NCBI RefSeq assembly: GCF_016793825.1
Contig: NZ_JAEULM010000044.1
Span: 496,001-560,000, forward strand
Origin: Sphingopyxis sp.
GTDB taxonomy: Bacteria > Pseudomonadota > Alphaproteobacteria > Sphingomonadales > Sphingomonadaceae
Reading direction: 5' to 3'
Length of the DNA: 64,000 nt
Below are positions 12,784-31,942 of this stretch, piece after piece. Within the stretch, counting starts at the first letter, position 1. Each line of letters opens with the position of its first letter. Made by a program: the position numbers and the translations under genes. The notes beneath the pieces are model-generated. The model did not search any database, was not told the origin of the DNA, and worked only from the letters and a program-made list of their open reading frames with translations.

Positions 12784-15096
12784 ATGACGACGACATACAA
12801 GCTGGCTTTGGCGCTTTCGACGACGATGGCCGCGGCTCTGATCGCAGCAGCCCCCGCCCGCGCGCAAGAAGCCGCCGCCGACGCGCCCTTCGCGACCACC
12901 GACATCATCGTCACCGCGCAGAAGCGCGAACAGAATCTGCAGGATGTCCCGGTGGCGATCTCGGTCGTTTCGGGTGGCCAACTCGAGCGAGCGAACATCA
13001 ATTCGGCCGAACAACTTTTCCAGCGCGTCCCCACGCTGACGTTCCGCAAGGGCAACACCAACAAGGATTCGGCGCTGTCGATCCGCGGCGTCGGCACGAT
13101 CAGCTTTTCCGCCGGCGTCGAACCGTCGGTATCGACCGTGATCGACGGCGTCGTCTATGCCCGTACCGGCCAGCAGACCTCGGATTTCCTTGATGTCGAG
13201 CGCATCGAGGTGCTGCGCGGCCCGCAGGGCAGCCTTTTCGGCAAGAATGCCAGTGCCGGGGTGATCAACATCGTGTCGCGCGAACCGGGCAATGAACTGG
13301 GCGGCTACGTCGACGCCGCCTGGTACGAGGGCAATGAATATCGCATCCGCGGCAGTGTCGGCGGCCCGCTCAGCGACAGCGTCCGCGCTTCGCTCACGGG
13401 CTTCTGGTCGCAGTATGACGGCAATGGCCGCAACGTGTTCAACAACCACAAGGTCAACGGCTATGAACATTGGGGCGTGCGCGGCAAACTGATCGCGGAG
13501 CCCAGCGATGCGCTGAAGATCACGCTGATCGCCGATTATTCGAAGGGAAGCGATAATGGCTATGCCGACAGCATCGGCACCGTCTTCTCCTCCGCTTTCA
13601 ACAATGCGGTGTTCATCCCGAGCCTCGCGCCGCTGACGCTGGACGGCAAGAACAAGGACATCGACAACGACCTCGATCCCTATACCAAGGACAAGAACAG
13701 CGGCGTGTCGGGGCAGTTCGACCTCGACCTCGGCGGCGTCACACTGACGTCGATCACCGCCTATCGTCATTGGTACAACTTCCAGCAGCGCGACGGCGAC
13801 TTCCGGTCGGACGCGCCGAAATATGTCAATACCGGGACCGCTTCGGGCGATGTCCGGTCGCATGATCGTGGCGATCTGACGTTCGACCAGTTCACCCAGG
13901 AATTGCGGATCGCATCATCAAATCCACAGTTTTTCGAATATGTTGCGGGCCTTTATTACTATCACACGAAAGAAGTCGACTTCTTCAACCGCACGGTCAC
14001 GAGCTGCACCGCCTCGACGCTGCCGACGGTAGGCGGCCTGACGCCCTGCGCCGCGGGATCGTCGACTTACCTCACCAACGAAGGCAACGCCGACTTCACG
14101 ACCACGCTGACCAGCTATTCGGCTTTCGGTCAGGGGACGTTGAACTTCACCGATGCGTTCCGCGGCATAGTCGGCTTGCGCCATACGAACGACAAGGTCG
14201 CCTATGACTTCGTCCGTCGTTCGACTTCGCTCGCGGCCTTCTCCGGCGTCAATCCGGCTTTTGCGTCGACGGGGTCGATCAAGGACAATGGCTGGTCGGG
14301 CAATGCCGGCCTGCAATATGACGTGACCGACGATGTCATCGCCTATGCAACCTATACGCGCGGTTACAAGGGCCCGGCGCTCAACATCTTCTTCAATATG
14401 CTGGCACGCGATACCGGCCGGATCGACCCCGAAAAGTCGAACGCCTATGAGGCCGGCCTGAAGATGCGGCTGTTCGACCGCCGCCTGACGCTGAACCTGG
14501 CAACATTCTATGCCAAGTACGACAATTATCAGGCGAACTTCCTCGACATCGTCGCGGGCCAGGTCGTCACCCGCCTGACCAACGCGGGCAGCGTTTCGAC
14601 GCGCGGCATCGAAATGGACTTCAACGCGGCGATCACGGACGATTTTTCGCTGTCGGGCGGCTTCAACTATACCGATGCCCACATCAACAAGTTCATTTGT
14701 CCCACGGGGGCTGCGGTAACCTGCGCCGATGCGATCAATGGCAAGCCACTGCCCTTTGCCCCCAAGTACAAGGGTACGGTGACGATGGACTGGCGCTTGC
14801 CGCTGAACATCGAGGGCTTCAACGTCGATCTGAACAGTTCGCTTGTCTATCAGAGCAAGACCAACTTCGACATCAACCAGAATCCGAATGCGTTCCAGAG
14901 CGCCTATGCGATCTGGGATGCCGGCGTCCGCGTCAGCACATCGGACGACAAGTACAGCCTGTCCTTCATCGTCAAGAACCTGACCGACAAGCAGTTCGTG
15001 ACGCAGCGTATTCCGAACGGCACCTCTTTCATGCGCCAGATCACGCCGCGCGACGCAGAGCGTTATTTCGGGATAACGGGCCGCGTGAACTTCTGA
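12784..15096 (+). CDS. TonB-dependent outer-membrane receptor (candidate SQ-glycoside importer)
   Basis: A 770-residue receptor. It has a signal peptide ending A-P-A-R-A-Q|E, a TonB-box-like stretch T-D-I-I-V-T-A-Q-K-R-E-Q, a plug domain (about residues 45-160, with V-E-R-I-E-V-L-R-G-P-Q-G and the N-A-S-A-G-V-I-N-I turn) and a 22-strand barrel ending I-T-G-R-V-N-F. The ATG at 12784 follows GGGGAGG. No STN signalling domain is present, so it is not a FecA-type transducer. It is immediately upstream of and co-directional with the sulfoquinovosidase, which suggests that its ligand is a sulfoquinovosyl glycoside; this is inference. Confidence 0.9.
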   Translation: MTTTYKLALALSTTMAAALIAAAPARAQEAAADAPFATTDIIVTAQKREQNLQDVPVAISVVSGGQLERANINSAEQLFQRVPTLTFRKGNTNKDSALSIRGVGTISFSAGVEPSVSTVIDGVVYARTGQQTSDFLDVERIEVLRGPQGSLFGKNASAGVINIVSREPGNELGGYVDAAWYEGNEYRIRGSVGGPLSDSVRASLTGFWSQYDGNGRNVFNNHKVNGYEHWGVRGKLIAEPSDALKITLIADYSKGSDNGYADSIGTVFSSAFNNAVFIPSLAPLTLDGKNKDIDNDLDPYTKDKNSGVSGQFDLDLGGVTLTSITAYRHWYNFQQRDGDFRSDAPKYVNTGTASGDVRSHDRGDLTFDQFTQELRIASSNPQFFEYVAGLYYYHTKEVDFFNRTVTSCTASTLPTVGGLTPCAAGSSTYLTNEGNADFTTTLTSYSAFGQGTLNFTDAFRGIVGLRHTNDKVAYDFVRRSTSLAAFSGVNPAFASTGSIKDNGWSGNAGLQYDVTDDVIAYATYTRGYKGPALNIFFNMLARDTGRIDPEKSNAYEAGLKMRLFDRRLTLNLATFYAKYDNYQANFLDIVAGQVVTRLTNAGSVSTRGIEMDFNAAITDDFSLSGGFNYTDAHINKFICPTGAAVTCADAINGKPLPFAPKYKGTVTMDWRLPLNIEGFNVDLNSSLVYQSKTNFDINQNPNAFQSAYAIWDAGVRVSTSDDKYSLSFIVKNLTDKQFVTQRIPNGTSFMRQITPRDAERYFGITGRVNF

Positions 15097-15105
15097 GGCT
15101 GAAAA

Positions 15106-15236
15106 GCCCTCCCCGAGGATTTCGATGGGGAGAGCGCAGCGCGAAGCGTTGACGGAGGGGCCGTGACGGGCCGCCGCCGCCCCTCCATCACGCCCCGCGC
15201 GCGCCCTCCCCATCGCCTCGCGGCAGGGAAGATTGT
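15106..15236. repeat. Intergenic palindromic repeat (REP-like)
   Basis: Between the receptor and the sulfoquinovosidase lie nested dyads: CTCCCC...GGGGAG (15109-15132) and GGAGGGGC...GCCCCTCC (15154-15185), followed by a further CCCTCCCC arm at 15204. The unit reading GCCCCTCCGTCAACGCTTCG on the minus strand looks like the dispersed palindrome often seen in sphingomonad genomes. It could act as a transcript stabiliser or attenuator between the two genes. Confidence 0.6.
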
Positions 15237-15261
15237 ATGAGGAAAGCGAAAGGATCCCCGC

Positions 15262-17271
15262 ATGGCGCTTGACGCGCTCGATACCGGCTTTGCCCTCCGC
15301 CTCGACGGGCGAACGATCCTGACGCACGGCAAGGATGCACCCTGTTTCTCGGTCGGGCGCGGCGTGCCGCATGTCCGTTCAAAGTTGGGCCACTTCGATG
15401 TGGCAGAAGAGGTGATCGAACGGATCGCGCTGACGCATGCCGAAGTCGACGGCGATGCCGTTCGCTTTGCCGAAGCGCCCGGCGCGGCATGGCTGCTCGA
15501 GGCGGAGGTATCGGGCGACGGTGACGATGCGGTGATCGCGCTGACGGCACTTGATGCGACACTCAATCGATTGTGGCTGCGTGTACCGGCGCAAGCGAGC
15601 GAGCATGTGTGGGGCGGAGGCGAGCAATTCTCGTACTTCGATCTGCGCGGCCGGCATTTCCCCCTGTGGTCGAGCGAACCCGGCGTTGGGCGCGATCCGG
15701 CATCACCGCTGTTCCAGCAGGTCGAGGCGCACCGCAAGGGCGGTGGCGGCAGTTATGCGCACACCAATTATCCCCAACCGACCTATGTGAGCTCGCGGCG
15801 CTATGCGCTCCATGTCGACAGCTTTGCCTATGCGGCGTTCGATTTCAGGAATGACGATCATCACGAAATCGAGGTCTGGGAGATTCCCGCGAAGATCGAG
15901 CTTTGGGCGCGGCCGCGTTTTGCCGCGCTGGTGTCGGCCCTGTCGGACCGCTTCGGACGTCAGCCGCCGCTGCCCGAATGGCTGCTCAAAGGTGCGGTCA
16001 TCGGGCTTAAGGATGGCGACAACAGCTTTGCACGATTGAAGGCGTACGAGGAGGCCGGGGTCGCAGTGTCGGGGCTGTGGTGCGAGGATTGGGTCGGCCT
16101 GCGCATCACCAGCTTCGGCAATCGCCTGTTCTGGGACTGGCAATGGAATGAAGAGCGTTATCCCGAATTGCCGGCGCGCATCGCCGAGTTGCGCGAGCGC
16201 GGCGTCCGGTTTCTTGGCTATGTGAACCCGTATCTGGCGGTCGACGGGCCACTCTATGCTGAGGCGGCGGGACAGGGTTTCATGGTGATGCATCCCGACA
16301 GGGACGAGCCTTATATCATCGATTTCGGCGAGTTCGATTGCGGGCATGTCGATTTCACCAATCCGGCGGCGGCGGCGTGGTTTGCGGACACGATCATCGG
16401 CGAGAAGATGATCGATTTCGGCCTGTCGGGCTGGATGGCGGACTTCGGCGAATATCTGCCGGTCGATGTTCGGCTGGCGAATGGCGAGAGCGGGATGACC
16501 GCGCACAACCGCTGGCCGGCGCTGTGGGGCGAGGTCAACGCCAAGGGCATCGCGGGGCGCGGGCAGACCGGCGAGATGATGGTCTTCATGCGATCGGGAG
16601 CGGCCGGTGTGCAGGGGCATTGCCCGATGCTGTGGGCGGGCGACCAGTCGGTCGATTTCTCGCGCCACGACGGCATCGGCACGGTGATCTGCGCCGCGCT
16701 GTCGGCGGGTATGCTCGGCAACGCGCATCATCACAGCGATTGCGGCGGTTATACGAGCCTGTTCGATACGACGCGCGACGCAGAGCTGGCGATGCGCTGG
16801 GCCGAGATGTCGGCGTTCACGTCGATGATCCGCACGCATGAGGGCAATCGGCCGCGGCAGAATGTGCAATATGACGACGATCCGGATTTGCTCGCGCATT
16901 TTGCGAAGATGACGCGGATTTATGCGCATCTGGCGCCGTACATCCGGCGACTGTCGCATGAGGCGTCAGAGATTGGGTTGCCCGTGCAGCGGCCGCTGTT
17001 CCTGCATTTCGACGACGATGCGGAAACCTATGCGATCCAGACCTCCTATCTGCTTGGTCCGGACCTGCTCGTCGCCCCGGTCATGGCGGCGGGGAAGCGC
17101 GAGTGGACGACCTATTTGCCTGCTGGAGCGGATTGGGTTCATGTCTGGTCGGGGCAGAGCCATACCGGGGGCGCGGACGTGACCGTTGCAGCGCCACTTG
17201 GGCAGCCGCCGCTATTCTACCGGGCCGGGTCGGCCGACGCGGCGCTGTTCGACGGGATCGTCTCGGCCTGA
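15262..17271 (+). CDS. yihQ: Sulfoquinovosidase (GH31, YihQ/SmoI type)
   Basis: A 669-residue GH31 alpha-glycosidase that hydrolyses sulfoquinovosyl glycerol to SQ and glycerol. The catalytic nucleophile is Asp394 in W-M-A-D-F-G-E-Y-L-P and the acid/base is Asp461 in W-A-G-D-Q. Residues that recognise the sulfonate in E. coli YihQ are all present: R288 and W291 (N-R-L-F-W) correspond to R301 and W304, and Y497 (C-G-G-Y) to Y508. The offsets are a constant 11 or 13 residues, so the alignment is close to collinear. Ordinary GH31 glucosidases lack this set. AAAGGA precedes the ATG. There is no signal peptide, so it should act in the cytoplasm. Its end overlaps the convergent LysR gene by 55 bases. 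Confidence 0.93.
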   Translation: MALDALDTGFALRLDGRTILTHGKDAPCFSVGRGVPHVRSKLGHFDVAEEVIERIALTHAEVDGDAVRFAEAPGAAWLLEAEVSGDGDDAVIALTALDATLNRLWLRVPAQASEHVWGGGEQFSYFDLRGRHFPLWSSEPGVGRDPASPLFQQVEAHRKGGGGSYAHTNYPQPTYVSSRRYALHVDSFAYAAFDFRNDDHHEIEVWEIPAKIELWARPRFAALVSALSDRFGRQPPLPEWLLKGAVIGLKDGDNSFARLKAYEEAGVAVSGLWCEDWVGLRITSFGNRLFWDWQWNEERYPELPARIAELRERGVRFLGYVNPYLAVDGPLYAEAAGQGFMVMHPDRDEPYIIDFGEFDCGHVDFTNPAAAAWFADTIIGEKMIDFGLSGWMADFGEYLPVDVRLANGESGMTAHNRWPALWGEVNAKGIAGRGQTGEMMVFMRSGAAGVQGHCPMLWAGDQSVDFSRHDGIGTVICAALSAGMLGNAHHHSDCGGYTSLFDTTRDAELAMRWAEMSAFTSMIRTHEGNRPRQNVQYDDDPDLLAHFAKMTRIYAHLAPYIRRLSHEASEIGLPVQRPLFLHFDDDAETYAIQTSYLLGPDLLVAPVMAAGKREWTTYLPAGADWVHVWSGQSHTGGADVTVAAPLGQPPLFYRAGSADAALFDGIVSA

Positions 17272-18134
17272 GCGACTTCACGCAGCACCGTGACGAACGC
17301 GGCGACAAGCGCGCTGCGGCTGCGGTTGCGGAGGAGATGGATGGCGTCGCGCGTGACTTCCGACGACGGGAGCGCGATCATGGCGAGGCCCGATCGCATC
17401 GCCAGGCGCAGGGGCACGACGGTGATCGCACGGCCGCTTCGCGCCATGTCGAGGCAGGCGGCGGTCGAGTCCAGCTCATAATCGGGAAACTGTCCCGCCG
17501 CGAAGCGAGCGCGGAGAGTACGCGGAAGGTTGCTGCCCGGTGCCGGGCGTGGAAGCGCCCAGGGAAAATCGGCACTATCGCCGCCACCTCTCGCCAGCGG
17601 ATGGTCGAGCGCACAAACGAGTATCAGCGGTTCGGTCGGCAGCGGGATACAGAGGACTTCGTCGGCGTGGCCCGACGCGGCAAACTTCGCACGGTTGCAG
17701 ACCACCAGGTCGAGCCGCCGGTCGATGAGAGTTTCGAGCAATTGCTGCGACGGACCGCCGGTAACAGTCACCCGCACGCCGGGATGCAATTCGGCAAAGC
17801 GCGCGATCGCGTCGGTGAGCAAGGGCTGCAACGGATAGGGTCCGCTGCCGACCGCGACGGTGCCGCTGCTCGGCTGATCGAGCCCGCGCGCCTCCTGTTC
17901 GAGATTCGCCGACGCGGCGATAACGTCGCGGGCGGATCGGATAAGCCGGTCGGCGTCGCTCGTCGGACGCACATAATGGGTGGTGCGGTCGAAGAGGGTG
18001 GCGCCCAGTTCCTCCTCGAGCTTCTGGATCGAGCGCGTGAGCGCCGATTGGGTAAGACCAAGTTCGTCAGCCGCGCGCGCGTAGCTGCCGAGGCGGTAAA
18101 GCGTGTCGAAATGTCGGAGGCGGCGGAGGTTCAT
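17217..18134 (-). CDS. LysR-family transcriptional regulator
   Basis: A 305-residue LysR protein started at M-N-L-R-R-L-R-H-F-D, the canonical LysR N terminus, although the frame is open 12 codons further. The helix-turn-helix contains A-A-D-E-L-G-L-T-Q-S-A-L-T-R-S-I-Q-K-L-E. The effector domain follows from about residue 90. It diverges from glpD (65-base gap) and probably controls the glpD/oxidase/kinase run. Its 3' end overlaps the convergent sulfoquinovosidase gene. Confidence 0.88.
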   Translation of the reverse strand: MNLRRLRHFDTLYRLGSYARAADELGLTQSALTRSIQKLEEELGATLFDRTTHYVRPTSDADRLIRSARDVIAASANLEQEARGLDQPSSGTVAVGSGPYPLQPLLTDAIARFAELHPGVRVTVTGGPSQQLLETLIDRRLDLVVCNRAKFAASGHADEVLCIPLPTEPLILVCALDHPLARGGGDSADFPWALPRPAPGSNLPRTLRARFAAGQFPDYELDSTAACLDMARSGRAITVVPLRLAMRSGLAMIALPSSEVTRDAIHLLRNRSRSALVAAFVTVLREVAQAETIPSNSAASADPAR

Positions 18135-18199
18135 GGCGCGCACCATATCATTCCCATAATGCAATACCAATGCCGCTGTGATGCGCTTAGCGTGAACAT

Positions 18200-19759
18200 A
18201 TGAGCAGCACCCAACTCGATGCGCGGCGGCGCGCGCAGGTCTTTGCCGAGCTGGAATCCCGGACGTTCGACCTTGCGGTGATCGGCGGCGGGATCACCGG
18301 CGCGGGGATCGCGCGCGACGCGGCGATGCGCGGGCTGTCGGTCGCGCTGGTCGAGGCGCGCGACTATGCCAGCGGGACGAGCAGCCGCAGCTCGAAGATG
18401 ATCCACGGCGGACTGCGATACCTCAGCCAGGGCGATATCGCGCTGGTCAAGGAAGCGGCGTCGGAGCGACAGGTGGTACGGCGGATCGCACCGCATCTCA
18501 CGACGCTCTCGCCCTTCCTGATCCCGACCACGAACATGGCAATGACCGCGAAATTACGGACGGGCCTCTGGACGTTCGAGAAACTCGGCGGCGTGCCCGA
18601 TGCCGAGAAGCATGAGGTTATCGGGCTGGCCGAGTTGCAACGGCGCGAGCCATTGATGCGCACCGACAAGCTGAATGGCGCGGTACTCTACCCCGAATTC
18701 CTGACCGACGACGCGCGGCTCGTTCTCGCCAATATCCGCAGCGCGCAGGGCGCGGGGGCGGTGGCGATCAATCATGCGGCGGCGTCGGAGCTTACGGAGG
18801 ATGGCCTTGTCGCGACCTCGACACTGAATGACGGGCTGGGTACGCGGATCAAGGCAAGGCTGGTGGTGAATGCCGCGGGAGCATGGGTCGACAAGGTGCG
18901 CGGATTGGAAGCCGGCGAAGGCGACGTGCGACTGTCGCTGAGCCGCGGCATCCACCTTGTCCTGCCGCGAGAGCGACTGCCGATCAACGCGACGCTCATC
19001 ATTCGCGCGCCCGACAAGCGTAGCATTTTTGCGGTACCGCGTGGCGCCTTCACCTATATCGGCACGACCGACGTGTTCCATGACGGCGCCGATTACTGGC
19101 CCGCGCCGACACGCGACGACATCGACTATCTGCTGCGCGCGACCGAAGCGGCGCTGCGCATCGATCCGATCCGGGATGGCGAAATCGTCGCGCTCTGGTC
19201 GGGGGTGCGGCCGCTGATCGCGCAGCCAGGCAAGAAGGCGAACGAGGTGTCGCGCAAGGACGAGATATGGACCTCGCCGAGCGGACTGGTGTCAATCGCG
19301 GGGGGCAAGCTCAGCGCCTATCGCGCGATGGCCGAGCGGGTTGTCGATCTGGTCGTCGAGCGGCTGGGCGCTACCGCCCTCCCCTGTTCGACCGCCGATG
19401 CGCCGCTGCCCGGAGGATCGCGCGGCGTCGGCGATAGCCTGAGCCGCCTAGATCCGCGCGCCGCCGAGCGGCTGGCACGCCTTTATGGCGACGAAGCAAA
19501 CGAGATCGTGATTGCGGGCGGCGATGTCGCCGCGGAGGCTACGCGCGCGGTGACGCATGAGGGCGCCGCCAGCCTTGAGGATTATTGGGTCCGCCGGAGC
19601 GCGCGCGCCTGGTTCGACGAGGGGGCCGGTCTGGCCGCGCTCGCTCCTGCCGCCGAGGCGATGGGCGCGCTGCTCGGCTGGGATGACGCCAAGACGGCAG
19701 CTGAGATCGCGCATTGCCGCAAGATCAACGAGGAAAGCCGCAGGCTTTTGGGAGAGTGA
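18200..19759 (+). CDS. glpD: FAD-dependent glycerol-3-phosphate dehydrogenase family protein (GlpD)
   Basis: A 519-residue flavoprotein with the GlpD fingerprint: the dinucleotide fold V-I-G-G-G-I-T-G-A-G-I-A-R-D near residues 27-40 and S-S-R-S-S-K-M-I-H-G-G-L-R-Y-L near 61-75. The C-terminal DAO_C cap is present. GlpD oxidises sn-glycerol 3-phosphate to dihydroxyacetone phosphate and feeds electrons to quinone. The next gene starts one base after its stop codon (a TGAG-ATG junction). With a downstream FGGY kinase it could use the glycerol released from SQ-glycerol, though a different polyol phosphate is possible. Confidence 0.85.
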   Translation: MSSTQLDARRRAQVFAELESRTFDLAVIGGGITGAGIARDAAMRGLSVALVEARDYASGTSSRSSKMIHGGLRYLSQGDIALVKEAASERQVVRRIAPHLTTLSPFLIPTTNMAMTAKLRTGLWTFEKLGGVPDAEKHEVIGLAELQRREPLMRTDKLNGAVLYPEFLTDDARLVLANIRSAQGAGAVAINHAAASELTEDGLVATSTLNDGLGTRIKARLVVNAAGAWVDKVRGLEAGEGDVRLSLSRGIHLVLPRERLPINATLIIRAPDKRSIFAVPRGAFTYIGTTDVFHDGADYWPAPTRDDIDYLLRATEAALRIDPIRDGEIVALWSGVRPLIAQPGKKANEVSRKDEIWTSPSGLVSIAGGKLSAYRAMAERVVDLVVERLGATALPCSTADAPLPGGSRGVGDSLSRLDPRAAERLARLYGDEANEIVIAGGDVAAEATRAVTHEGAASLEDYWVRRSARAWFDEGAGLAALAPAAEAMGALLGWDDAKTAAEIAHCRKINEESRRLLGE

Positions 19760-19760
19760 G

Positions 19761-21164
19761 ATGAGTTCGATTGCCGAAGCCCTTGCCAGCGCCGTGGGCG
19801 CCGACCGTGTTGCGAGCGATACAGATGCGCTGAACGCCCGCCGCTACGACCAGTGGGCGGTCAAGCATCTGCGCGACTGGCGCGGCGAAGCCGTGTCCGC
19901 GCCGAGATGCGTCGTACGGCCGCAGTCGGTCGAAGATGTGCAGAAGGTTGTACGCCTTGCCGCCGAGAAGCGCATACCGCTGATCCCCTATGGTCTTGGC
20001 AGCGGGGTGTGCGGGGGGATCGAGCCGACGCCGGATGCGATCCTGCTCGACATGAGCGGCATGAACCGCGTGCGCTACATCGACAGCGACGATCTGCTCG
20101 CGAGCTTCGATGCGGGACTCAACGGCATGGAGGCCGAAGAGGCGGTTGCGGCGCACGGTCTGACGATCGGTCACTGGCCGCAATCGATTGCGATCAGCAG
20201 CGTCGGCGGCTGGGTGTCGACGCGCGCCTCGGGGCAGTTCTCGACCGCATATGGCAATATCGAGGACATCATCCATTCGATCGAGGCGGTGCTGTCGAAC
20301 GGCGAGCTGGTCACGCTGGGCAAGGCGGTGCGCGCCGCCGCCGGCCCGGACCTGCGGCATTTGCTGATGGGTGCCGAAGGCGTGATGGGCGTGATCACCG
20401 GCGTGACCTTCTCGCTGCGGGCGAAAGCCCCGCACCGCGACTACAGCATCTTCTACGCCGACGACATGCGCGCGGGCTTCGAGGCGCAGCGGCAGATCGT
20501 ACGCGCCGACTGGCGCCCGCCGGTGATGCGCCAGTATGACGGGCGCGAGGTACGGCGCTTGTTCCGCGACTATGAACGCGATGGCAAGGCGATGCTGTTG
20601 ATGGTCCATGAAGGGCCCAAGGCGCGAGTCGACGCCGAGCTGGCGGCGATGCACGAGATTTGCGGCGCCTCGGGGCTCGAAGCGGGCGATCCGATGGCGG
20701 CAAAGCAGTGGATCGAAAAACGCAACCATGTGCCAAGCTGGCGCGACATGTTCGAGCGCGGCTATGTCGCCGACACGGTCGAGATTTCGGGGCGCTGGAG
20801 CGAGATCGGCGCGATCTATGACGACAGCATCGCCGCGCTCAACGAAATCCCCGGCGTGATCAACGCATCGGCGCACAGCAGCCATGTCTACCGGTCGGGA
20901 ATCAACCTCTATTTCAGCTTTGCCGCCAGTTTCGAAGACAGTGCGAAGATGGAGCCCGCCTATTTCGCCGGCTGGCGCGCGATCATGGAAGCGACTGCAA
21001 AGCATGGCGGCGGAGTTGCGCACCATCATGGCGCGGGGCGGCTTCGCAAGCCCTATCTTCAACATGATCTGGGCGAAAACGGGGTCGCTCTGCTTCGCCG
21101 GATCAAGCAATGTCTCGATCCGGAGGGAATCATGAACCCGGGCAATCTGATACCCGATGCCTGA
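19761..21164 (+). CDS. FAD-binding oxidase of the alkyl-DHAP synthase (AGPS)-like group
   Basis: A 467-residue PCMH-type flavoprotein. The FAD domain has P-L-I-P-Y-G-L-G-S-G-V-C-G-G near residues 74-87 and I-S-S-V-G-G-W-V-S-T-R-A-S-G-Q. Near the C terminus V-A-H-H-H-G-A-G-R-L-R-K-P reproduces the catalytic HHH motif of AGPS, and D-P-E-G-I-M-N-P-G-N is the usual terminus of FAD-linked oxidases. The ATG follows GGGAGAGTGAG. It sits between glpD and a kinase with which it overlaps by eight bases. Whether it makes or breaks a glycerol-ether bond or oxidises a hydroxy acid cannot be told; 2-hydroxyacid oxidase is the main alternative. Confidence 0.8.
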   Translation: MSSIAEALASAVGADRVASDTDALNARRYDQWAVKHLRDWRGEAVSAPRCVVRPQSVEDVQKVVRLAAEKRIPLIPYGLGSGVCGGIEPTPDAILLDMSGMNRVRYIDSDDLLASFDAGLNGMEAEEAVAAHGLTIGHWPQSIAISSVGGWVSTRASGQFSTAYGNIEDIIHSIEAVLSNGELVTLGKAVRAAAGPDLRHLLMGAEGVMGVITGVTFSLRAKAPHRDYSIFYADDMRAGFEAQRQIVRADWRPPVMRQYDGREVRRLFRDYERDGKAMLLMVHEGPKARVDAELAAMHEICGASGLEAGDPMAAKQWIEKRNHVPSWRDMFERGYVADTVEISGRWSEIGAIYDDSIAALNEIPGVINASAHSSHVYRSGINLYFSFAASFEDSAKMEPAYFAGWRAIMEATAKHGGGVAHHHGAGRLRKPYLQHDLGENGVALLRRIKQCLDPEGIMNPGNLIPDA

Positions 21165-23578: not shown

Positions 23579-23610
23579 GACGAGCAAAGAGAAAATAGTG
23601 AGAGGATCAA

Positions 23611-24945: not shown

Positions 24946-26108
24946 GCATTGCAAGCATCGCCCTGCCCCGCATCCTGCGCATCGGCGCCGGCGCGTCGAA
25001 GGAGCTGCCCGACGTGCTGGGCACGCTGGGGCTGGGGCGGCCGCTGATCGTGACCGACGGCTGGCTGGTGAGCAGCGGCCGTGTGACCGAGTTGGTCGAC
25101 GGACTGGCGGCGGCCGGGATCGCGGCGCGGGTGTTTGCGGATACGGTCCCCGACCCGACGGTGGCGTCGGTCGACGCAGGGGTCGCCTTCCTGAAGGACG
25201 GCGAGCATGACTGCGTCGTCGGTTTCGGGGGCGGCAGCCCGCTCGACAGCGCGAAGGCAATTGCCTTGCTCGGAAAATTCGGCGGGGCAATGGCAGACTA
25301 CAAAGCCCCCCATGTGCAGGATGCGCCGGGGCTGCCGATAATCGCAATCCCCACGACAGCGGGCACCGGGTCGGAGGCGACGCGCTTCACGATCATCACC
25401 GACGAAACAACCGACGAGAAGATGCTGTGCCCCGGGCTCGCCTACCTGCCCGTCGCCGCGCTCGTCGATTACGAGCTGACCTTCACCAAACCCAAAAGGC
25501 TGACTGCCGACACCGGCATCGATTCGCTCGTTCACGCGATCGAGGCCTATGTGTCGAAGCGCGCGAACCCGTTCAGCGACGGCATGGCCTTGCTCGCGAT
25601 GCGTGCGATCGCGCCAAACTTGCGTCGCGTGTGCAGCGACCCGATGGACGCGGCGGCGCGCGAGGCGATGATGCTGGGCGCGACGCAGGCGGGGATCGCC
25701 TTCTCGAACAGCTCGGTCGCGCTGGTTCACGGGATGAGCCGGCCGATCGGCGCGCATTTCCATGTCCCGCACGGGCTGTCGAACGCGATGCTGCTGCCCG
25801 CGGTGACCGCTTGGTCGGCGCCCGCGGCGCTGCACCGCTATGGCGATTGCGCAAGGGCGATGGGGGTGGCGGACGAGGCCGAGGGCGATCAGGCGGCGGT
25901 AGCGCGGCTGCTCGACGAGCTGGCGGCGCTCAACCGCGAGCTCGAAGTGCCGGGGCCCGCCGCATGGGGCATCGACGCGGCACGCTGGGACGCGCTGGTC
26001 CCGACGATGTGCGCGCAGGCAGCGGCATCGGGGTCGCCCGCGAACAATCCGCGCGTGCCGGATAGCGAGGAGATGGCGATGCTGTATGCGCAGGTTTGGG
26101 CCGGATAA
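24942..26108 (+). CDS. Iron-containing alcohol dehydrogenase
   Basis: A 388-residue group III (iron-dependent) alcohol dehydrogenase. The NAD(P) loop is G-F-G-G-G-S-P-L-D-S-A-K near residues 93-104. Metal ligands are visible in T-G-I-D-S-L-V-H-A-I-E (Asp, His) and H-G-M-S-R-P-I-G-A-H-F-H-V-P-H-G (two His). I place the start at a TTG that overlaps the MFS stop as TTGA, since the frame contains no ATG or better site nearby and the protein begins M-S-I-A-S-I-A-L-P-R. It probably reduces or oxidises an aldehyde/alcohol intermediate of the locus. A 3-carbon sulfoaldehyde reductase role is conceivable but not shown. Confidence 0.88.
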   Translation: MSIASIALPRILRIGAGASKELPDVLGTLGLGRPLIVTDGWLVSSGRVTELVDGLAAAGIAARVFADTVPDPTVASVDAGVAFLKDGEHDCVVGFGGGSPLDSAKAIALLGKFGGAMADYKAPHVQDAPGLPIIAIPTTAGTGSEATRFTIITDETTDEKMLCPGLAYLPVAALVDYELTFTKPKRLTADTGIDSLVHAIEAYVSKRANPFSDGMALLAMRAIAPNLRRVCSDPMDAAAREAMMLGATQAGIAFSNSSVALVHGMSRPIGAHFHVPHGLSNAMLLPAVTAWSAPAALHRYGDCARAMGVADEAEGDQAAVARLLDELAALNRELEVPGPAAWGIDAARWDALVPTMCAQAAASGSPANNPRVPDSEEMAMLYAQVWAG

Positions 26109-26213
26109 GATTTTTTGTTCATCGACAGGCAATCCGCCTCCTGCTTAAGCGCGCTCGCCCCGTCTCCCTCTCTCCTACGTCTCACCGAGGAGGCGGGGCA
26201 TCCCATTCAAAAT

Positions 26214-26309: not shown

Positions 26310-26316
26310 GGAGGCG

Positions 26317-27384
26317 TCAGAGCCCCAGCGGCCCGTGCGTCATCTTCGGCAGCACATGGCGCGCAAAAAGGTCGGCTTCGGCGGCATGGGGGTAACCCGA
26401 CAGGATGAATGCCTCGATCCCCATGTCCTGATAGCGGTTCAGCTTCGCCAGCACCTGATCGGGGTCGCCGACGATCGCGGCGCCGCAGCCCGAGCGGGCG
26501 CGGCCGACGCCGGTCCAGAGATTATCCTCGACATAGCCGTCGTCGGAAGCGGCCTCGCGGAGCGCGACCTGCGCGTTGACACCAAAGCTCTGCGAATCGA
26601 GCGATTTGGCCTTGATCGCCGCGCCCTTCTCCGCATCGAGCTTCGAGAGCAGGCGGTAGGCGGCGGTGCGCGCCTCGGCCTCGGTATCGCGAACGATCAT
26701 ATGCGCGCGGTAGCCGAACTTCAGCGTGCGACCGTAAGCGGCGGCACGCGCGGTCATGTCGGCGATGATCTCCTTCACCACCTCCTCGCGGTCGGGCCAC
26801 ATCAGGAAAACGTCGCAGCCCTTTGCGGCGGCGTCGCGTGCGGCGGGGGAAAGTCCGCCGAAATAGAGCGGCGGTGCCTTCCCGGACACCATGCCGATGC
26901 GCGCAGGTTCAAGCTTCAGCTTCCAGAACTCGCCATCATGGTCGAGCGCCTCACCGTTCAGCAGCGTCTTCAGGATATGCATCGCCTCGACCGTACGGCG
27001 ATAGCGCGGTTCGGACTCCATGGTCTCGCCGGGCATGTCCGACGAGATGATATTGACCGTCAGCCTGCCGCCCAGAATGCGATCGATCGTCGCGATCTGG
27101 CGCGCGAGCTGCGGCGGCCATGTTTCGCCGACGCGCACCGCCATCAGCAGGCGGATGCGTTTCACCATCGTCGCGATCGCCGCGGCGAAGGCGGTCGTGT
27201 CGATGCCGAGCGCATAGCCCGACGGCAGCAGGATATTGTCGAAGCCAAGGGTATCGGCCTGCACCACGATGTCGCGGCAATGCTCCCAGCTCGATTTGAG
27301 CATCGGGTCGGGGATGCCCAGAAATTCATAGTCGTCGTCGCAGAGCGCCGAAAACCAGCTCACTTCGCACGTACGATCGGTCAC
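26317..27384 (-). CDS. smoC: FMNH2-dependent sulfoquinovose monooxygenase (SmoC/SquD-like, SsuD family)
   Basis: A 355-residue bacterial luciferase-like flavin monooxygenase closest in pattern to alkanesulfonate monooxygenase SsuD. The stretch N-L-W-T-G-V-G-R-A-R-S-G-C-G and L-S-G-Y-P-H match SsuD Arg297 and Tyr331, and Y-R-A-H-M-I-V-R matches Arg226/His228. SsuD Cys54 is not conserved: S-G-Y-A-L-G stands in its place. The GTG start overlaps the aldo-keto reductase stop as GTGA with GGGGGAG eight bases upstream. An ATG 14 codons earlier lies inside the reductase gene and is less likely. The pairing with an AKR and a sulfoquinovosidase points to SQ desulfonation to 6-dehydroglucose plus sulfite. 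Confidence 0.85.
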   Translation of the reverse strand: MTDRTCEVSWFSALCDDDYEFLGIPDPMLKSSWEHCRDIVVQADTLGFDNILLPSGYALGIDTTAFAAAIATMVKRIRLLMAVRVGETWPPQLARQIATIDRILGGRLTVNIISSDMPGETMESEPRYRRTVEAMHILKTLLNGEALDHDGEFWKLKLEPARIGMVSGKAPPLYFGGLSPAARDAAAKGCDVFLMWPDREEVVKEIIADMTARAAAYGRTLKFGYRAHMIVRDTEAEARTAAYRLLSKLDAEKGAAIKAKSLDSQSFGVNAQVALREAASDDGYVEDNLWTGVGRARSGCGAAIVGDPDQVLAKLNRYQDMGIEAFILSGYPHAAEADLFARHVLPKMTHGPLGL

Positions 27385-28283
27385 GGTAAATTCTCCCCCA
27401 TCGATGTTTGCAGCACCGCGTACCATTCGGCGCGCGTCCAGCGCGGCGCGAAGGCTTGCGGGATTTCCTTGATCCGGTCGGGATTTTGGGTGCCGACGAT
27501 CGGGATCGGGCGCGCGGGATGCGCCATCACCCAGCTATAAGTCGCCGCGGCGCGCGAGACGCCGTACTCCGCCGCCTTCGCATCGAGCAGTCCAGCGACT
27601 GCGCGCGTGCGCTCGTCCGCCGGATCGCCGAGCCGGCCGCCGCCGAGCGGCGACCAGGCGAGGAGGCTCATCCCCTCCGCCATCGACTGATCGAAGATGC
27701 CATCGAAGAGCGGGTTCAGGTGAAGCGGGGAAAATTCGCTCTGATGGCTGACCACAGGAACCGGCAGGAATTTGGCGAGCGCCGCGGCCTGCGCGGTCGT
27801 GAAGTTCGACACGCCGATCGCACCGATCTTGCCCGCGCGGTGCGCGTCTTCGAGCGTGCGTGCAATTTCCTGCGGATGCGTGAGCAGGTCGGGACGATGA
27901 ATCTGCCACAATTCGACATGGTCGGTACGCAGGCGTTTCAGCGAGATATCGATCGCAGAGGTCAAATAGGAGGCACTGCTGTCATAAGGCACGCCAAGGA
28001 TGATCCCGCCCTTGGTCGCAAGGACCATCTTGTCACGCAGCGCAGGCGCTTCGGCGAAGACCTCACCCAGCAACGCTTCGGCCGAACCAAAACCCGCCGG
28101 CGTATCGCAGCCGTAAATGTCGGCGGTGTCGAACAGGGTCACGCCCGCTTCGAAAGCTGCATCGACGCGCGCCCGCGCCGTGGGGACATCGACACCGGCA
28201 AAGCGCCACATGCCCCAGGCAATGGGTGCGACTTTATGACCGGCAAGAGTCAAAGGGGTGGTGGCGGGAAGATAATCTGACAT
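27381..28283 (-). CDS. smoB: Aldo-keto reductase (6-dehydroglucose reductase, SmoB/SquF-like)
   Basis: An aldo-keto reductase of about 300 residues. The catalytic tetrad is visible: Asp and Tyr in F-D-T-A-D-I-Y-G, Lys in L-A-T-K-G-G, His in W-Q-I-H-R-P-D. The NADPH site contributes P-I-V-G-T-Q-N. In the SQ monooxygenase pathway this enzyme reduces 6-dehydroglucose to glucose. Three in-frame ATGs compete (28301, 28292, 28283). The two downstream ones fall within the LacI operator, and the only purine box, GGAG, lies between the first and second. I chose M-S-D-Y-L-P by resemblance to family N termini. The monooxygenase overlaps its stop by four bases. Confidence 0.85.
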   Translation of the reverse strand: MSDYLPATTPLTLAGHKVAPIAWGMWRFAGVDVPTARARVDAAFEAGVTLFDTADIYGCDTPAGFGSAEALLGEVFAEAPALRDKMVLATKGGIILGVPYDSSASYLTSAIDISLKRLRTDHVELWQIHRPDLLTHPQEIARTLEDAHRAGKIGAIGVSNFTTAQAAALAKFLPVPVVSHQSEFSPLHLNPLFDGIFDQSMAEGMSLLAWSPLGGGRLGDPADERTRAVAGLLDAKAAEYGVSRAAATYSWVMAHPARPIPIVGTQNPDRIKEIPQAFAPRWTRAEWYAVLQTSMGENLP

Positions 28284-28291
28284 CGCTGTCA
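28278..28291. promoter_or_regulatory. LacI-type operator at the aldo-keto reductase start
   Basis: TGACATCGCTGTCA has perfect TGACA/TGTCA arms around a central CG and is the best site of the set. It covers the candidate start codons of the reductase, so a bound repressor would block either initiation of transcription nearby or elongation. Confidence 0.85.
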
Positions 28292-28340
28292 TATACTCCA
28301 TAAGAGAGGTCGAGTGAAGCGGGTTTCTTATATGATCCCG

Positions 28341-29588
28341 TCAGTGGGCGAAAATCGGGGTATCGTCGATGCCATCCTCGTCGATCGCGACGATCCGGGG
28401 CAGGATGAGATGAATTACCGCGAGCGCTACGAGGTAGGTGAAGGCGCAGATGAGCATCATCGGCAGATAGCCCCTGCCTGTGTCGAGCGACCAGCCCGCG
28501 AACTCGATCATCGCCATGCCCGACAGATTGCCCGCGAAAGCGCCGATGCCGATTGCCGATCCCACGATGCGCGCCGGGAAAACGTCGGTCGTAAGGCCGA
28601 AGAGATTGGTCGAAAATCCCTGGTGCGCGAACAGCGCCAGCCCCAGGATCATCGCGGCGATCCATGCGCTGTCCACACCGACCAGCGACGGCACGGGGAG
28701 GATCAGCAGCGCATAGAGGAGCATCGTCGTCTTGCGCGCGGCATTCACAGTCCACCCGCGCGCCATCAGCCAGGACGGCAGGACGCCACCGGTAATTCCG
28801 CCCAGTGCCGCCATGAAATAGACAAAGGCGACAGGCAACCCCAACGTCCCCTGCGTCAGACCAAAGACGCGGTGGAACAGATCGGGCATGAAGAAAAGCA
28901 GGAACCACCAGACCTGATCGGTGAGCGCCTTGCCAAGTATGACGGCCCATTGCCGGCGATCGCGCAAGAGGCTGCTCCACGCGATCTTCGGTGCAGCCGC
29001 ATCCGCCGCGGCGTTAGGTTGCTCAGGAATGCGGACAGCAAGCCAGACGACGACCCAGACGAGGCCGAGCCCCCCGGCGATCAGAAAGGTCGCCTGCCAA
29101 CCCCACATCATCGCCATCAAGGGAATGAGCAAGGGCGTGAGGATCGCGCCGACATTGGGCGCGATCCCCCCAAGGCCAAGAACGAAGCTTCGCTCCTTCG
29201 CGTTGAAATAGGTCGCGGCCGTCTTGACCGCAGCGGGGGTGCCGATCGATTCGGCGGCGCCGAGCACGGCGCGCGATGTCACGAAGCCTGCCACGGTCGA
29301 TGCGAAGGCGTGAGCCATCCCGGCCAGGCTCCAGATCCCTACCCCGATAGCGAAACCCCAGCGCAGGCCTACCTTGTCGATGAACCAGCCGGTACCGAGA
29401 AAGGCGAGCGCCGCGGCGAACTGGAAGGCCGAGGCCATGTGACTGTAATCGCGGTCGGACCAGTCGAACTCCACCTGCAACGTGGGCTTGAGGAGCGCGA
29501 GAATCTGGCGATCGACATAATTGAGAACGATGGCAACGAAGACGAGCCCCACCACCAGCCAGCGGCGCCGATCGGCGTGCGTCGTCAC
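28341..29588 (-). CDS. MFS transporter, anion:cation symporter (ExuT-like), candidate SQ importer
   Basis: A 415-residue permease with twelve helices. N-Y-V-D-R-Q-I-L-A-L-L-K in helix 1 and R-A-V-L-G-A-A-E-S in helix 4 are typical of the hexuronate/ACS family that carries organic anions. The GTG at 29588 (M-T-T-H-A-D-R-R-R-W) has GGGGGAGAG just before it. The frame is open to an ATG at 29642, but that one lies in the operator and lacks a ribosome-binding site. The gene is followed by the reductase and monooxygenase on the same strand. SQ, a sugar sulfonate anion, is a reasonable substrate. Confidence 0.86.
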   Translation of the reverse strand: MTTHADRRRWLVVGLVFVAIVLNYVDRQILALLKPTLQVEFDWSDRDYSHMASAFQFAAALAFLGTGWFIDKVGLRWGFAIGVGIWSLAGMAHAFASTVAGFVTSRAVLGAAESIGTPAAVKTAATYFNAKERSFVLGLGGIAPNVGAILTPLLIPLMAMMWGWQATFLIAGGLGLVWVVVWLAVRIPEQPNAAADAAAPKIAWSSLLRDRRQWAVILGKALTDQVWWFLLFFMPDLFHRVFGLTQGTLGLPVAFVYFMAALGGITGGVLPSWLMARGWTVNAARKTTMLLYALLILPVPSLVGVDSAWIAAMILGLALFAHQGFSTNLFGLTTDVFPARIVGSAIGIGAFAGNLSGMAMIEFAGWSLDTGRGYLPMMLICAFTYLVALAVIHLILPRIVAIDEDGIDDTPIFAH

Positions 29589-29627
29589 GTTGCTCTCCCC
29601 CGAGTCTCTATCTCTGTCCTTGAAATA

Positions 29628-29641
29628 AGATAACGCTGTCA
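29628..29641. promoter_or_regulatory. LacI-type operator upstream of the MFS transporter
   Basis: AGATAACGCTGTCA (gene strand TGACAGCGTTATCT) keeps one perfect TGACA arm and the shared TATGACAGCG 10-mer, with two mismatches in the other arm. It lies 40 bases before the GTG start and 48 bases after the lacI-type gene. Confidence 0.7.
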
Positions 29642-29688
29642 TACGCGAAAAGACAGCCCTTTTTCTTGTCGCTCGGGCAAAAAAGGAG

Positions 29689-30693
29689 TTATGCCTGCGG
29701 CGGCGCTGTCGAGCCGCGCACGATCAGTTCGTGCGGCAGTTGCCGCCGCTCGATCGTCTCGCCGAATTCAAGCAGCAGGTCCGCCGCGGCATAGCCTAGG
29801 TCGCGGATCGGTTGGCGGATCGTCGTCAGCGATGGCCAGACGACCTGCGCGAGATCGGTGTCGTCAAAGCCCGCGACCGACAGACGATCCGGAACCCGAA
29901 TGCCCATGCGGTGCGCCGCGGCGAGGACGCCCGCCGCCATTTCGTCGCTGCTCGCGAAGATCGCGGTCGGCGGATCGTCCAGCGCCAGCAGCGCGTCCGC
30001 CGCGGCCGCGCCCGACTGAAAATCGAACTGGCCCGGAAACACAAGCGTCGCATCGAATCCGATCCCCGCGCGCTGCAACGCCTGACGATAGCCCGTCAAT
30101 CGCTGCCCGCTTGCGAAATAATTGGCGTGCCCGGTGACCAGCCCGATGCGGCGGTGGCCGAGCGAGATCAGATAGGCGGTCATGTCGTCTGCCGCCTGGA
30201 CGTTGTCGATGTAAACCGCTGACGTCGCTGTCAAATCGGTCCCCGGCTGGACGCGCACGACCGGGATCTTGCGGCGGAACAGTTCGGCGAGCGCGGTGCC
30301 GACGTCGGTCACCGGCGGGGTCATGATGATGCCATCGAGCTGCGCCTGATCGATCAGCGCACCGATGTCGTCGATCAACCCCGGCGAGTTCACGTCGCAC
30401 GGCTGGATGATCATGCGAAAATTCGCCTCGCGGCAGCGTTGCCCGACCCCGGCCTGCATGTTGAAGATATAATAGGGGCTGGGATTGTCGTGGATCAGCC
30501 CAATCTGGAATGAGCGTTTGCCGGCGAGCGTGCGCGCGGCGAGACTGGGGTGGTAATTGAGGCGCGCGACTGCTTCCTCGACCTTTTGCCGCATGTCGTC
30601 GCTGACATAGCGTTCCTTGTTGAGAACGCGCGACACGGTCTTGATCGACACGCCGGCGACGCGCGAGACATCCTTGATCGTCGCCCGGGTCAT
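29689..30693 (-). CDS. LacI-family transcriptional repressor of the SQ locus
   Basis: A 334-residue LacI/GalR protein. The DNA-binding helix reads T-I-K-D-V-S-R-V-A-G-V-S-I-K-T-V-S-R-V-L (residues 5-24) and a hinge helix contains L-A-A-R-T-L-A-G-K-R. A sugar-binding-protein-like effector domain follows. The ATG at 30693 and a TTG two codons earlier are both possible; GGAG sits five bases before the TTG. Four nearby sites with the same half-site make this protein their likely ligand, with SQ or a derivative as inducer. It lies 5' of the MFS-reductase-monooxygenase run on the same strand. Confidence 0.9.
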   Translation of the reverse strand: MTRATIKDVSRVAGVSIKTVSRVLNKERYVSDDMRQKVEEAVARLNYHPSLAARTLAGKRSFQIGLIHDNPSPYYIFNMQAGVGQRCREANFRMIIQPCDVNSPGLIDDIGALIDQAQLDGIIMTPPVTDVGTALAELFRRKIPVVRVQPGTDLTATSAVYIDNVQAADDMTAYLISLGHRRIGLVTGHANYFASGQRLTGYRQALQRAGIGFDATLVFPGQFDFQSGAAAADALLALDDPPTAIFASSDEMAAGVLAAAHRMGIRVPDRLSVAGFDDTDLAQVVWPSLTTIRQPIRDLGYAAADLLLEFGETIERRQLPHELIVRGSTAPPQA

Positions 30694-30841
30694 GCGCAAT
30701 TGCGCTCCGCCCCGGCAAGAGCAATCGACTTCACGGCTCCGTTCCCCTGCTGGCCATCGTTGGCTTGCTTAGGCGCGCCGACAGCCATTCCGCAAGAGAA
30801 GCCTTGCGCGCTTCCCCTGCTCCGGATTATGGCACATTGAT

Positions 30842-31942
30842 ATGACAGCGTTAGACAGAAATGCCGAAACATCGATGCGCCACGCGCATTGGAACAATCT
30901 GCCAAGCGGCGGCGACCTGTTCGGCGAACTGCATCTGGCACAGGTCAAGGCCGGAGCGGCGCCGAAGGGTAGCCTCTTTCCCGGGCTTGCCGCCTGCGCG
31001 GCAGGATCCGCTGCCGCAGCATGGCTGTCCGACCATTATGGCTTTCCGATCATCCTGCTTGGCTTGCTTGTCGGCTTGTCGCTCAATTTCATCTCGACCA
31101 ACGAGGCGACGCATCGCGGCCTCGATTTCGCGTCGCGAACCTTCCTGCGCATCGGCATCGTCGTACTGGGGCTGCAGGTGACGTTCGCACAGATCGCCGT
31201 GCTGGGGCCGGTTCCGTTCGGCGCGCTGCTGGTCGTGATGGCGCTGACGATGGGCGCGGGGCTCCTCGGCGCGCGGATTGCGGGTCAGTCTTCGTACGCC
31301 GGGCTACTTGCAGGCGGAGCGACGGCGATCTGCGGCGCGAGCGCAGCGCTCGCTCTCTATGGCGTGATCGGCAAACAGCGGCTGTCGCAGGCGCAATTCG
31401 CGCTGACACTGGTCGGCATCTCGCTCGCAAGCGCGCTCGCGATGACGATCTATCCCCTGCTCGCCGGCCAATTTGGGCTCAGTGACAAACAGGCCGGTTT
31501 CCTGATCGGCGCGTCGATCCACGACGTCGCGCAGGCGATCGGCGGGGGTTACGCCTTTTCCGACGCAGCCGGCGCAAGTGCGACCATCGTCAAGCTCGCG
31601 CGCGTCGCACTGCTTGCGCCTGTGGTCGCGCTCGTCAGCCTGTTGCTCAAGCCCGAGAGGAGCGGCGACACGCACTTTTGGCGCCGCCTTGCCCTTCCTT
31701 GGTTCATTCTGGCCTTTCTGGCTGTCGTGACGCTGAATAGCGTCATTTCCGTTCCCGATACGGCGCGCGACTGGGCGCTGACGGGATCGAAGGCGTTGCT
31801 GCTGCTCGCGGTCACCGCAACGGCGATGCGCACACGGCTCGACCTGCTGCTCGAAATGGGCTGGCGTGCGGCGATTCCGGTGGCGCTGGCGACGTTGACC
31901 AGCTTTGGGGTCGCACTGTTCTTTGCCTTTACCCTTGGATAG
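30842..31942 (+). CDS. YeiH/UPF0324-family sulfate (sulfite) exporter
   Basis: A 366-residue membrane protein of the YeiH family (Cons_hypoth698), which includes the TauZ/SuyZ carriers co-encoded with sulfonate degradation. It has about ten hydrophobic helices. Conserved stretches are G-G-A-T-A-I-C-G-A-S-A-A near residue 155 and G-A-S-I-H-D-V-A-Q-A-I-G-G-G near 230. Oxidative cleavage of SQ releases sulfite, so an exporter fits. The ATG at 30842 lies in the operator with no ribosome-binding site; M-R-H-A-H-W at 30875 is an alternative start. It diverges from the lacI-type gene. Confidence 0.87.
   Translation: MTALDRNAETSMRHAHWNNLPSGGDLFGELHLAQVKAGAAPKGSLFPGLAACAAGSAAAAWLSDHYGFPIILLGLLVGLSLNFISTNEATHRGLDFASRTFLRIGIVVLGLQVTFAQIAVLGPVPFGALLVVMALTMGAGLLGARIAGQSSYAGLLAGGATAICGASAALALYGVIGKQRLSQAQFALTLVGISLASALAMTIYPLLAGQFGLSDKQAGFLIGASIHDVAQAIGGGYAFSDAAGASATIVKLARVALLAPVVALVSLLLKPERSGDTHFWRRLALPWFILAFLAVVTLNSVISVPDTARDWALTGSKALLLLAVTATAMRTRLDLLLEMGWRAAIPVALATLTSFGVALFFAFTLG
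30843..30856. promoter_or_regulatory. LacI-type half operator before the exporter
   Basis: TGACAGCGTTAGAC shares TATGACAGCG with the other sites and has the same orientation relative to its gene, but the second arm is degenerate. It may be a weak site. Confidence 0.55.

Follow-up and report, generated by a model that had tools for sequence, protein, structure and literature searches.

A predicted sulfoquinovose monooxygenase locus in Sphingopyxis sp. with an added PhyH-LysR unit and GlpD/AGPS/FGGY cassette

The stretch of Sphingopyxis sp. DNA analysed here (contig NZ_JAEULM010000044.1, positions 496,001 to 560,000; 64,000 nucleotides, referred to as the window) carries a cluster of genes for the catabolism of sulfoquinovose (SQ), which a review (PMC12890257) ranks among the most abundant organosulfur compounds. 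The locus raises the question of which SQ pathway it encodes and what is contributed by the genes which have no role in that pathway. Based on gene identity by homology, the active-site residues of the GH31 enzyme and a conserved neighbourhood, the locus very probably serves SQ catabolism by the sulfolytic monooxygenase route (sulfo-SMO, also named sulfo-ASMO). The first-pass annotation of this DNA had made the same call, which was borne out by the GH31 enzyme, the SmoC-type monooxygenase, the aldo-keto reductase (AKR) and the recurring neighbourhood. The core is the known pathway, while the anatomy is a variant to which a PhyH-LysR unit and a cassette of GlpD-like, AGPS-like and FGGY genes are added. 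The pathway itself is already known from sphingomonads and is not new: passages of two reviews (PMC12890257, PMC9594981) credit Liu et al. 2021 with its characterization in Novosphingobium aromaticivorans, a sphingomonad, and in PMC13372026 stable-isotope probing is described as showing that Novosphingobium assimilates SQ, with the SMO pathway predicted in related genomes.

The sulfoquinovose monooxygenase core

The GH31 gene product is a predicted sulfoquinovosidase (SQase). It scored 870 bits against the NCBIfam model NF007746 (YihQ type), the cut-off of which is 553. Its closest solved relatives were 5ohy and 5ohs (E about 1e-280), which we take to be the SQase of A. tumefaciens, followed by 8r56, 6pnr and E. 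coli YihQ (5aed), with YicI and others far lower. Residues R288, W291, D394, D461 and Y497 align with R301, W304, D405, D472 and Y508 of YihQ; presumably, the Arg, Trp and Tyr residues bind the sulfonate and the two Asp residues are catalytic. All five had been correctly placed in the first-pass annotation, whereas the constant offset to YihQ claimed there was not found, the numbering differing by 13 for R and W and by 11 for D, D and Y. Among the other GH31 proteins, of which only matches of more than 40% identity and more than 500 residues were aligned, all five residues were present in 19 of 19.

The monooxygenase gave 391 bits with 7oh2 and 388 with 7olf, both of which we take to be SmoC, compared with 230 for 7jv3 (presumably MsuD) and 208 for 1nqk and 1m41. 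A six-residue loop near residue 135, present in 7jv3, 1nqk and 1m41, is missing from the window protein. Best-hit scores thus favoured SmoC over the other luciferase-like enzymes, the grouping on which the earlier interpretation had been made to depend.

Relatives of this monooxygenase were sought in species genomes, where at least 594 were confirmed, and the best 80 were kept. These 80 SmoC loci are mostly from Sphingomonadales, with some from Caulobacterales and others; many end at contig ends, and the per-gene identity thresholds behind the counts were chosen by the analyst. The AKR was found in 77, MFS carrier 1 in 61, LacI in 55, the TonB receptor in 51, a GH188-like gene in 43 and YeiH in 40, followed by GH31 (20), flavin reductase (18), iron-containing alcohol dehydrogenase (Fe-ADH; 11), PhyH (10) and the cassette (9). 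Each locus reached at most 10 kb to either side of SmoC, so that distant genes, such as PhyH in cassette-bearing loci, are undercounted. When only the 51 loci of at least 19 kb are considered, MFS carrier 1 occurs in 43 and the TonB receptor in 39. An SQase gene of either family is present in 63 of the 80 (20 GH31, 43 GH188-like), and both together in none. The monooxygenase was matched at E 1e-130 or better in 54 of 296 genomes of the order, and the ten relatives of 90-96% identity came from Sphingopyxis (8) and Sphingomonadales/Sphingomonadaceae (2). Since the cluster anatomy recurs in related genomes, it is not due to chance. It is highly improbable that the enzyme is a general sulfonate scavenger in the role of SsuD or MsuD, lying beside GH31 incidentally: it is, like SsuD and MsuD, a member of the luciferase family and reaches 261 bits with TIGR03565, but that value misses the cut-off of 518, the SsuD/MsuD chains score 208-230 bits against 391 for 7oh2/7olf, and the frequency of SQase genes in the SmoC loci argues against mere proximity.

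The remaining core assignments are of unequal strength, and several points weigh against them. The AKR is barely nearer to 7bbz/7bby (E about 1e-41), which we take to be SmoB, than to the YdhF-like chains that come next (3e-40 and 5e-39, an approximately 25-fold difference in E-value); it was assigned as SmoB-like because it shares the locus with SmoC in 77 of 80 cases, and in the window the two genes overlap. The flavin reductase is a candidate for the missing SmoA, the predicted flavin donor of the monooxygenase, yet it lies 15.7 kb from SmoC in a separate transcription unit and misses all NCBIfam equivalog cut-offs. The proposed YeiH-type exporter passed PF03601, whereas the NCBIfam YeiH model TIGR00698 was not reached (112 bits against 232.6), for which reason the gene is called only YeiH-type.

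From these identities we infer the reactions, transport and regulation of the Sphingopyxis locus as follows. SQ glycosides would be taken up by way of the TonB receptor and MFS carrier 1, and SQ would be set free by the GH31 enzyme. The monooxygenase, receiving reduced flavin mononucleotide (FMNH2) from the flavin reductase, would cleave the C-S bond of SQ to give sulfite and 6-dehydroglucose, which the AKR would convert to glucose. Sulfite would be exported by the YeiH-type protein, and LacI would sense the sugar. Import by a TonB receptor plus an MFS carrier had been put forward as a distinguishing feature; since both are frequent in related SmoC loci, it is not peculiar to this one.

On the plasmid of Novosphingobium sp. 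EMRT-2, SmoC directly adjoins genes (L148:15073-19979) with the annotations mannitol dehydrogenase family, glucuronate isomerase and D-mannonate dehydratase. It is possible that 6-dehydroglucose is oxidized to glucuronate there as an alternative to its reduction, or that this is a chance neighbourhood.

The PhyH-LysR unit and the GlpD/AGPS/FGGY cassette

The limits first given to the locus (12784-31942) were too narrow, leaving out the flavin reductase, PhyH and LysR 1 at 10048-12473. These belong to the cluster because their order is kept in locus L010 and in genome G268. The PhyH product has both the PF05721 match and the HxD...H metal site. Close relatives occur in 4 of 296 genomes of the order (E 1e-40) and 4 of 385 of the class (E 1e-30), the window being counted in each, in 7 of the 82 genomes from the family to which G468 belongs, that genome included (E 1e-60), and in 2 of 72,556 plasmid records (E 1e-20). 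Twelve places with PhyH at 60% identity or more were collected without selection for SmoC and with the window excluded; ten PhyH genes from the SmoC-selected loci were not counted among them, and two relatives fell below the cut, G350 at 39% and G539 at 50%, the latter adjoined by ABC-type genes on a contig of 7.3 kb. For G748 the genome search gave two stops within the matched range, where a 257-codon open frame is present.

In 11 of these 12 places the fetched surroundings include an SQase gene, GH31 or GH188-like. The sole exception is G746, where 19.9 kb of a 31.0 kb contig were fetched and the contig ends 3.8 kb from PhyH. The neighbourhood of PhyH also contains a LysR 1 relative in 10 of the 12. 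SmoC is situated within 20 kb of PhyH in eight (G268, G179, G272, G748, G736, G737, EMRT-2 and Sphingobium yanoikuyae); it is on a separate contig in G743 and approximately 690 kb away in G738. G468 and G746 hold only luciferase-family proteins of 30-31% identity, and thus no SmoC orthologue was found in either. G468, a complete genome of 5 contigs, carries PhyH together with a GH31 protein having all five SQase residues. In EMRT-2 and G179 the PhyH protein is 88-90% identical to that of the window and SmoC 69-70%, which indicates that the PhyH/LysR 1/TonB/GH31 block has a history different from that of the AKR-SmoC pair. The nearest solved sequences include EvdO2, which we take to be an oxygenase acting on a sugar substrate. 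The structure model was poor (mean pLDDT 60), and a fold search returned family members (SnoN, proline hydroxylase H11, GriE, EvdO2 and HygX). Judged by its gene neighbourhood, the PhyH oxygenase is a predicted SQ-linked enzyme; SmoC-independent oxidation of SQ or an SQ glycoside is a possible role. No paper joining sulfoquinovose with phytanoyl-CoA dioxygenase was found among the open-licence PMC papers searched.

G743 has two separate SQase loci, one (L163) with GH31, PhyH and the cassette and the other (L190) with a GH188-like gene, SmoC, AKR, an ABC-type transporter set and a TonB receptor. The GH188-PhyH-SmoC cluster of S. yanoikuyae plasmid pKN1 also encodes another luciferase-like monooxygenase, as well as a sulfatase (L150:7376-8728 and 14000-15562).

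The first-pass annotation had noted extra genes beyond the pathway; they are present, and that they include a cassette with its own distribution had gone unrecognized. The cassette was detected in 9 of the 80 SmoC loci, namely those that are Sphingopyxis-like, L012 (Sphingobium boeckii) and L013 (Sphingomonas colocasiae). In these nine the GlpD-like, AGPS-like, FGGY, TIM-barrel and MFS carrier 2 genes are located between GH31 and Fe-ADH, with LysR 2 in seven. The cassette also occurs together with GH31, PhyH, an acyl-CoA ligase and the TIM barrel in G468 and G743.

The Arg, Tyr and HHH positions, which we take to be catalytic in alkyl-dihydroxyacetonephosphate (alkyl-DHAP) synthase, were aligned and kept in 19 of 19 AGPS-like proteins including that of the window; in the lactate dehydrogenase LctD, compared in the same way, HHH is missing. 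The cassette kinase scored 321 bits against the GlpK model TIGR01311 (cut-off 590), under which the organism's own GlpK, with 554 bits, also falls. When compared with that GlpK, all 8 of 8 cassette copies have a pocket E changed to A, S or T and a Y changed to Q or P, both presumably glycerol-binding residues of GlpK, as well as a ten-column deletion. The GlpD-like dehydrogenase gave 288 bits with NF008899 (cut-off 360). Better matches to GlpK (554 bits) and GlpD (706 bits) exist elsewhere in the same genome.

An acyl-CoA ligase gene adjoins GH31 in five relatives, including G268 of the same genus, which fits a lipid substrate. The G268 protein (L131:2418-4135), 81% identical to that of EMRT-2, is encoded between GH31 and the TonB receptor; the corresponding gap in the window, 15096-15262, is just 165 bases. 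L005 and L010 likewise have no ligase gene between GH31 and the TonB receptor. The TIM-barrel protein had no Pfam match and no meaningful PDB sequence match, and a fold search returned many TIM barrels, 4ovx being best by TM among the 50 matches listed. Its gene accompanies the cassette and also PhyH-LysR 1 (L132, L163 and L165), and may thus link the two sets of companions.

Proposed and alternative readings of the companion genes

As to the cassette, our tentative proposal is that it acts on the aglycone. The kinase would phosphorylate a 1-O-substituted glycerol, for example a lyso-sulfolipid backbone, the GlpD-like enzyme would oxidize it at C2, and an AGPS-type step would remove the substituent to give dihydroxyacetone phosphate (DHAP) and a fatty acid or alcohol. 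Evidence weighing against this comes from the absence of any acyl-CoA ligase match in the whole window and from three alphaproteobacterial cassette cores of GlpD and AGPS, with or without FGGY (L134, L137 and L138), around which the 20 kb fetched contained no SQ gene. The latter are also what would be expected if the cassette were unrelated to SQ, a travelling catabolic module for another glycerol derivative that came to lie inside the SQ cluster of Sphingopyxis by chance, an explanation which we likewise hold to be possible without favouring it. In support of it, Fe-ADH abuts GH31 in the cassette-free loci L005 and L010, the cassette is approximately 261 kb from SmoC in G179 and approximately 185 kb in EMRT-2, on the same contig or plasmid, and no SmoC orthologue was found in three (G468, G410 and G535) of the seven class genomes, window included, that have an AGPS-like protein. 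However, the other four (window, G417, G520 and G647) do have one, in G647 at 30 kb on the same contig as the cassette core L138; the distant cassette of G179 is flanked by MFS and LacI genes with 79% and 78% identity to their counterparts in the window SMO unit, and that of EMRT-2 by genes annotated MFS and LacI; and in G468 and G743 the cassette keeps company with GH31, PhyH and the ligase. It is rather doubtful that the cassette is simply a glycerol branch for SQ-glycerol, with kinase and dehydrogenase leading to DHAP and the AGPS-like protein incidental. Glycerol is indeed a product of SQ-glycerol hydrolysis, and the two enzymes are homologous to GlpK and GlpD, but the better GlpK and GlpD candidates elsewhere in the genome, the loss of both pocket residues from the kinase, and the retention of the AGPS-like gene, catalytic residues included, between the kinase and dehydrogenase genes in triads all weaken it. 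No paper treating alkyldihydroxyacetonephosphate synthase, glycerol-3-phosphate dehydrogenase and FGGY jointly was found among the open-licence PMC papers searched.

For the PhyH oxygenase the corresponding question is whether it constitutes a second enzyme, independent of SmoC, that oxidizes SQ or one of its glycosides and perhaps cleaves the C-S bond like SqoD, so that there would be two oxidative routes. We consider this unlikely. PhyH does track SQases more closely than it tracks SmoC (11 against 8 of the 12 places), G468 and G746 have PhyH with no SmoC orthologue found, and EvdO2 is among its nearest solved sequences. On the other hand, SmoC is nearby in the eight places listed, where a second desulfonase would be redundant, the portion of the G746 contig that was fetched showed no SQase, and the structure model is poor. 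An AKR of 55% identity in G468 was considered as a SmoB in support of such a route and was withdrawn, as its neighbourhood contains none of the SQ genes searched for; one expected partner is thereby removed. The same neighbourhood pattern applies to the AKR of G743, which has a separate SMO-linked AKR, and partly to that of G746.

Returning to the proposal of an SMO core with SQ-linked companions, its furthest extension is that the window fuses the SMO pathway with a SmoC-independent SQ-glycolipid system composed of GH31, PhyH and LysR, the TIM barrel, GlpD-AGPS-FGGY and often an acyl-CoA ligase, in which PhyH would oxidize SQ or its glycoside and catabolic alkyl-DHAP-synthase chemistry would open the backbone of lyso- or ether-sulfolipids. 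As a joint claim this is improbable and is offered as speculation. Should the companions act on the sulfolipid backbone or oxidize SQ, more of the sulfolipid would be used than the known pathway explains, and PhyH-LysR would mark SmoC-free SQ clusters such as that of G468. The survey criterion given in PMC13372026 is SmoB plus SmoC; a survey of this kind would leave G468 out of the SMO-positive genomes.

Gene inventory and comparison with known systems

All genes named in the first pass were present at or near the positions assigned to them, as long open reading frames (ORFs) with the position-specific GC content typical of coding DNA, Fe-ADH only from an internal start. The Pfam profile scan covered 20 proteins between 10.0 and 34.7 kb of the window. 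The true start of PhyH is probably near 11451, the point where conservation begins; that of Fe-ADH is uncertain, with the TTG at 24942 likely.

Table 1. Genes of the predicted SQ cluster, with positions in the window
Feature	Position	Strand	Basis
NADPH-dependent FMN reductase, candidate SmoA	10048..10662	-	PF03358, 89 bits; 18/80 SmoC loci
PhyH-family Fe(II)/2-oxoglutarate oxygenase	10687..11523	-	PF05721; metal site H, D, H invariant (11 sequences)
LysR regulator 1, divergent from PhyH	11553..12473	+	ORF and Pfam; relative near PhyH in 10/12
TonB-dependent receptor, candidate importer of SQ glycosides/sulfolipids	12751..15096	+	PF00593 and PF07715
Predicted GH31 sulfoquinovosidase, SmoI/YihQ type	15262..17271	+	NF007746, PDB matches, five SQase residues
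LysR regulator 2, divergent from cassette	17217..18170	-	Adjoins cassette also in L127 and L137
GlpD-like FAD dehydrogenase (cassette)	18200..19759	+	NF008899, 288 bits (cut-off 360)
Alkyl-DHAP-synthase-like (AGPS-like) flavoenzyme (cassette)	19761..21164	+	Best PDB 2uuu, E 1e-55; Arg, Tyr, HHH kept
FGGY kinase (cassette), GlpK-like, altered pocket	21157..22575	+	TIGR01311, 321 bits (cut-off 590); alignment with own GlpK
TIM-barrel protein, xylose-isomerase-like fold	22608..23474	-	Fold match 4ovx; model pLDDT 75
MFS carrier 2	23611..24945	+	PF07690; in the same 9/80 loci as the cassette
Iron-containing alcohol dehydrogenase (Fe-ADH)	24942..26108	+	PF00465/PF25137; 11/80 loci, some cassette-free
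SmoC/SquD-type FMNH2-dependent SQ monooxygenase	26317..27426	-	PDB scores; upstream start overlaps AKR gene
SmoB/SquF-like aldo-keto reductase	27381..28301	-	Best PDB 7bbz/7bby; 77/80 SmoC loci
MFS carrier 1, candidate importer of SQ or SQ glycosides	28341..29642	-	PF07690; 61/80 loci
LacI-type regulator	29689..30699	-	PF00356 and PF13377; 55/80 loci
YeiH-type membrane protein, candidate sulfite/sulfate exporter	30842..31942	+	PF03601, 176 bits, over cut-off; 40/80 loci

The DNA upstream of the cluster (175-7733) holds a cytochrome oxidase set of the cbb3 type, comprising COX1, FixO, FixP, FixG and FixH-like genes and a P-type ATPase. At 39077-44202 a TPR-sulfotransferase fusion is encoded beside a TonB-receptor-like protein, for which there was no Plug match at E 1e-10, and a FecR gene adjoins.

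The closest known systems are the sulfo-SMO pathways of A. tumefaciens (smo) and N. aromaticivorans (SquD/SquF), with which the window has in common a GH31 SQase, a SmoC-type monooxygenase, a SmoB-like AKR and a flavin reductase; N. aromaticivorans belongs to the same order, and the likeness to it is one of pathway. The PhyH-LysR unit and the GlpD/AGPS/FGGY cassette are extra in the window. A. tumefaciens has an ABC importer for SQ-glycerol, according to passages of PMC9594981, in contrast to the TonB receptor and MFS carrier of the window, where no ABC-transporter component was found among the 20 proteins scanned.

SmoC and an SQase also occur together in the SMO clusters with GH188 (SqgA) of Sphingomonas and Roseobacter. 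The SQase of the window is of GH31 and not GH188, no GH188-like match being present in the window; among the 43 GH188-like SmoC loci, 8 have a PhyH relative. PMC10755693 lists a GH188 cluster from a Sphingomonas and gives the SqgA structures 8qc2, 8qc3, 8qc5, 8qc6 and 8qc8, and the Gfo/Idh protein of the S. yanoikuyae cluster had 8qc2 and 8qc3 as its best PDB matches.

The sulfo-SDO/sulfo-ASDO systems likewise tie an oxygenase of the Fe/2-oxoglutarate type, SqoD in Marinobacterium aestuarii, to SQ genes, and differ in that the window additionally has SmoC. SqoD of Marinobacterium cleaves the C-S bond. With alkyl-DHAP synthase, an enzyme of ether-lipid synthesis, the AGPS-like protein has the presumed catalytic Arg, Tyr and HHH motif in common; it is shorter, and its gene shares a catabolic-looking operon with those of a kinase and a GlpD-like dehydrogenase.

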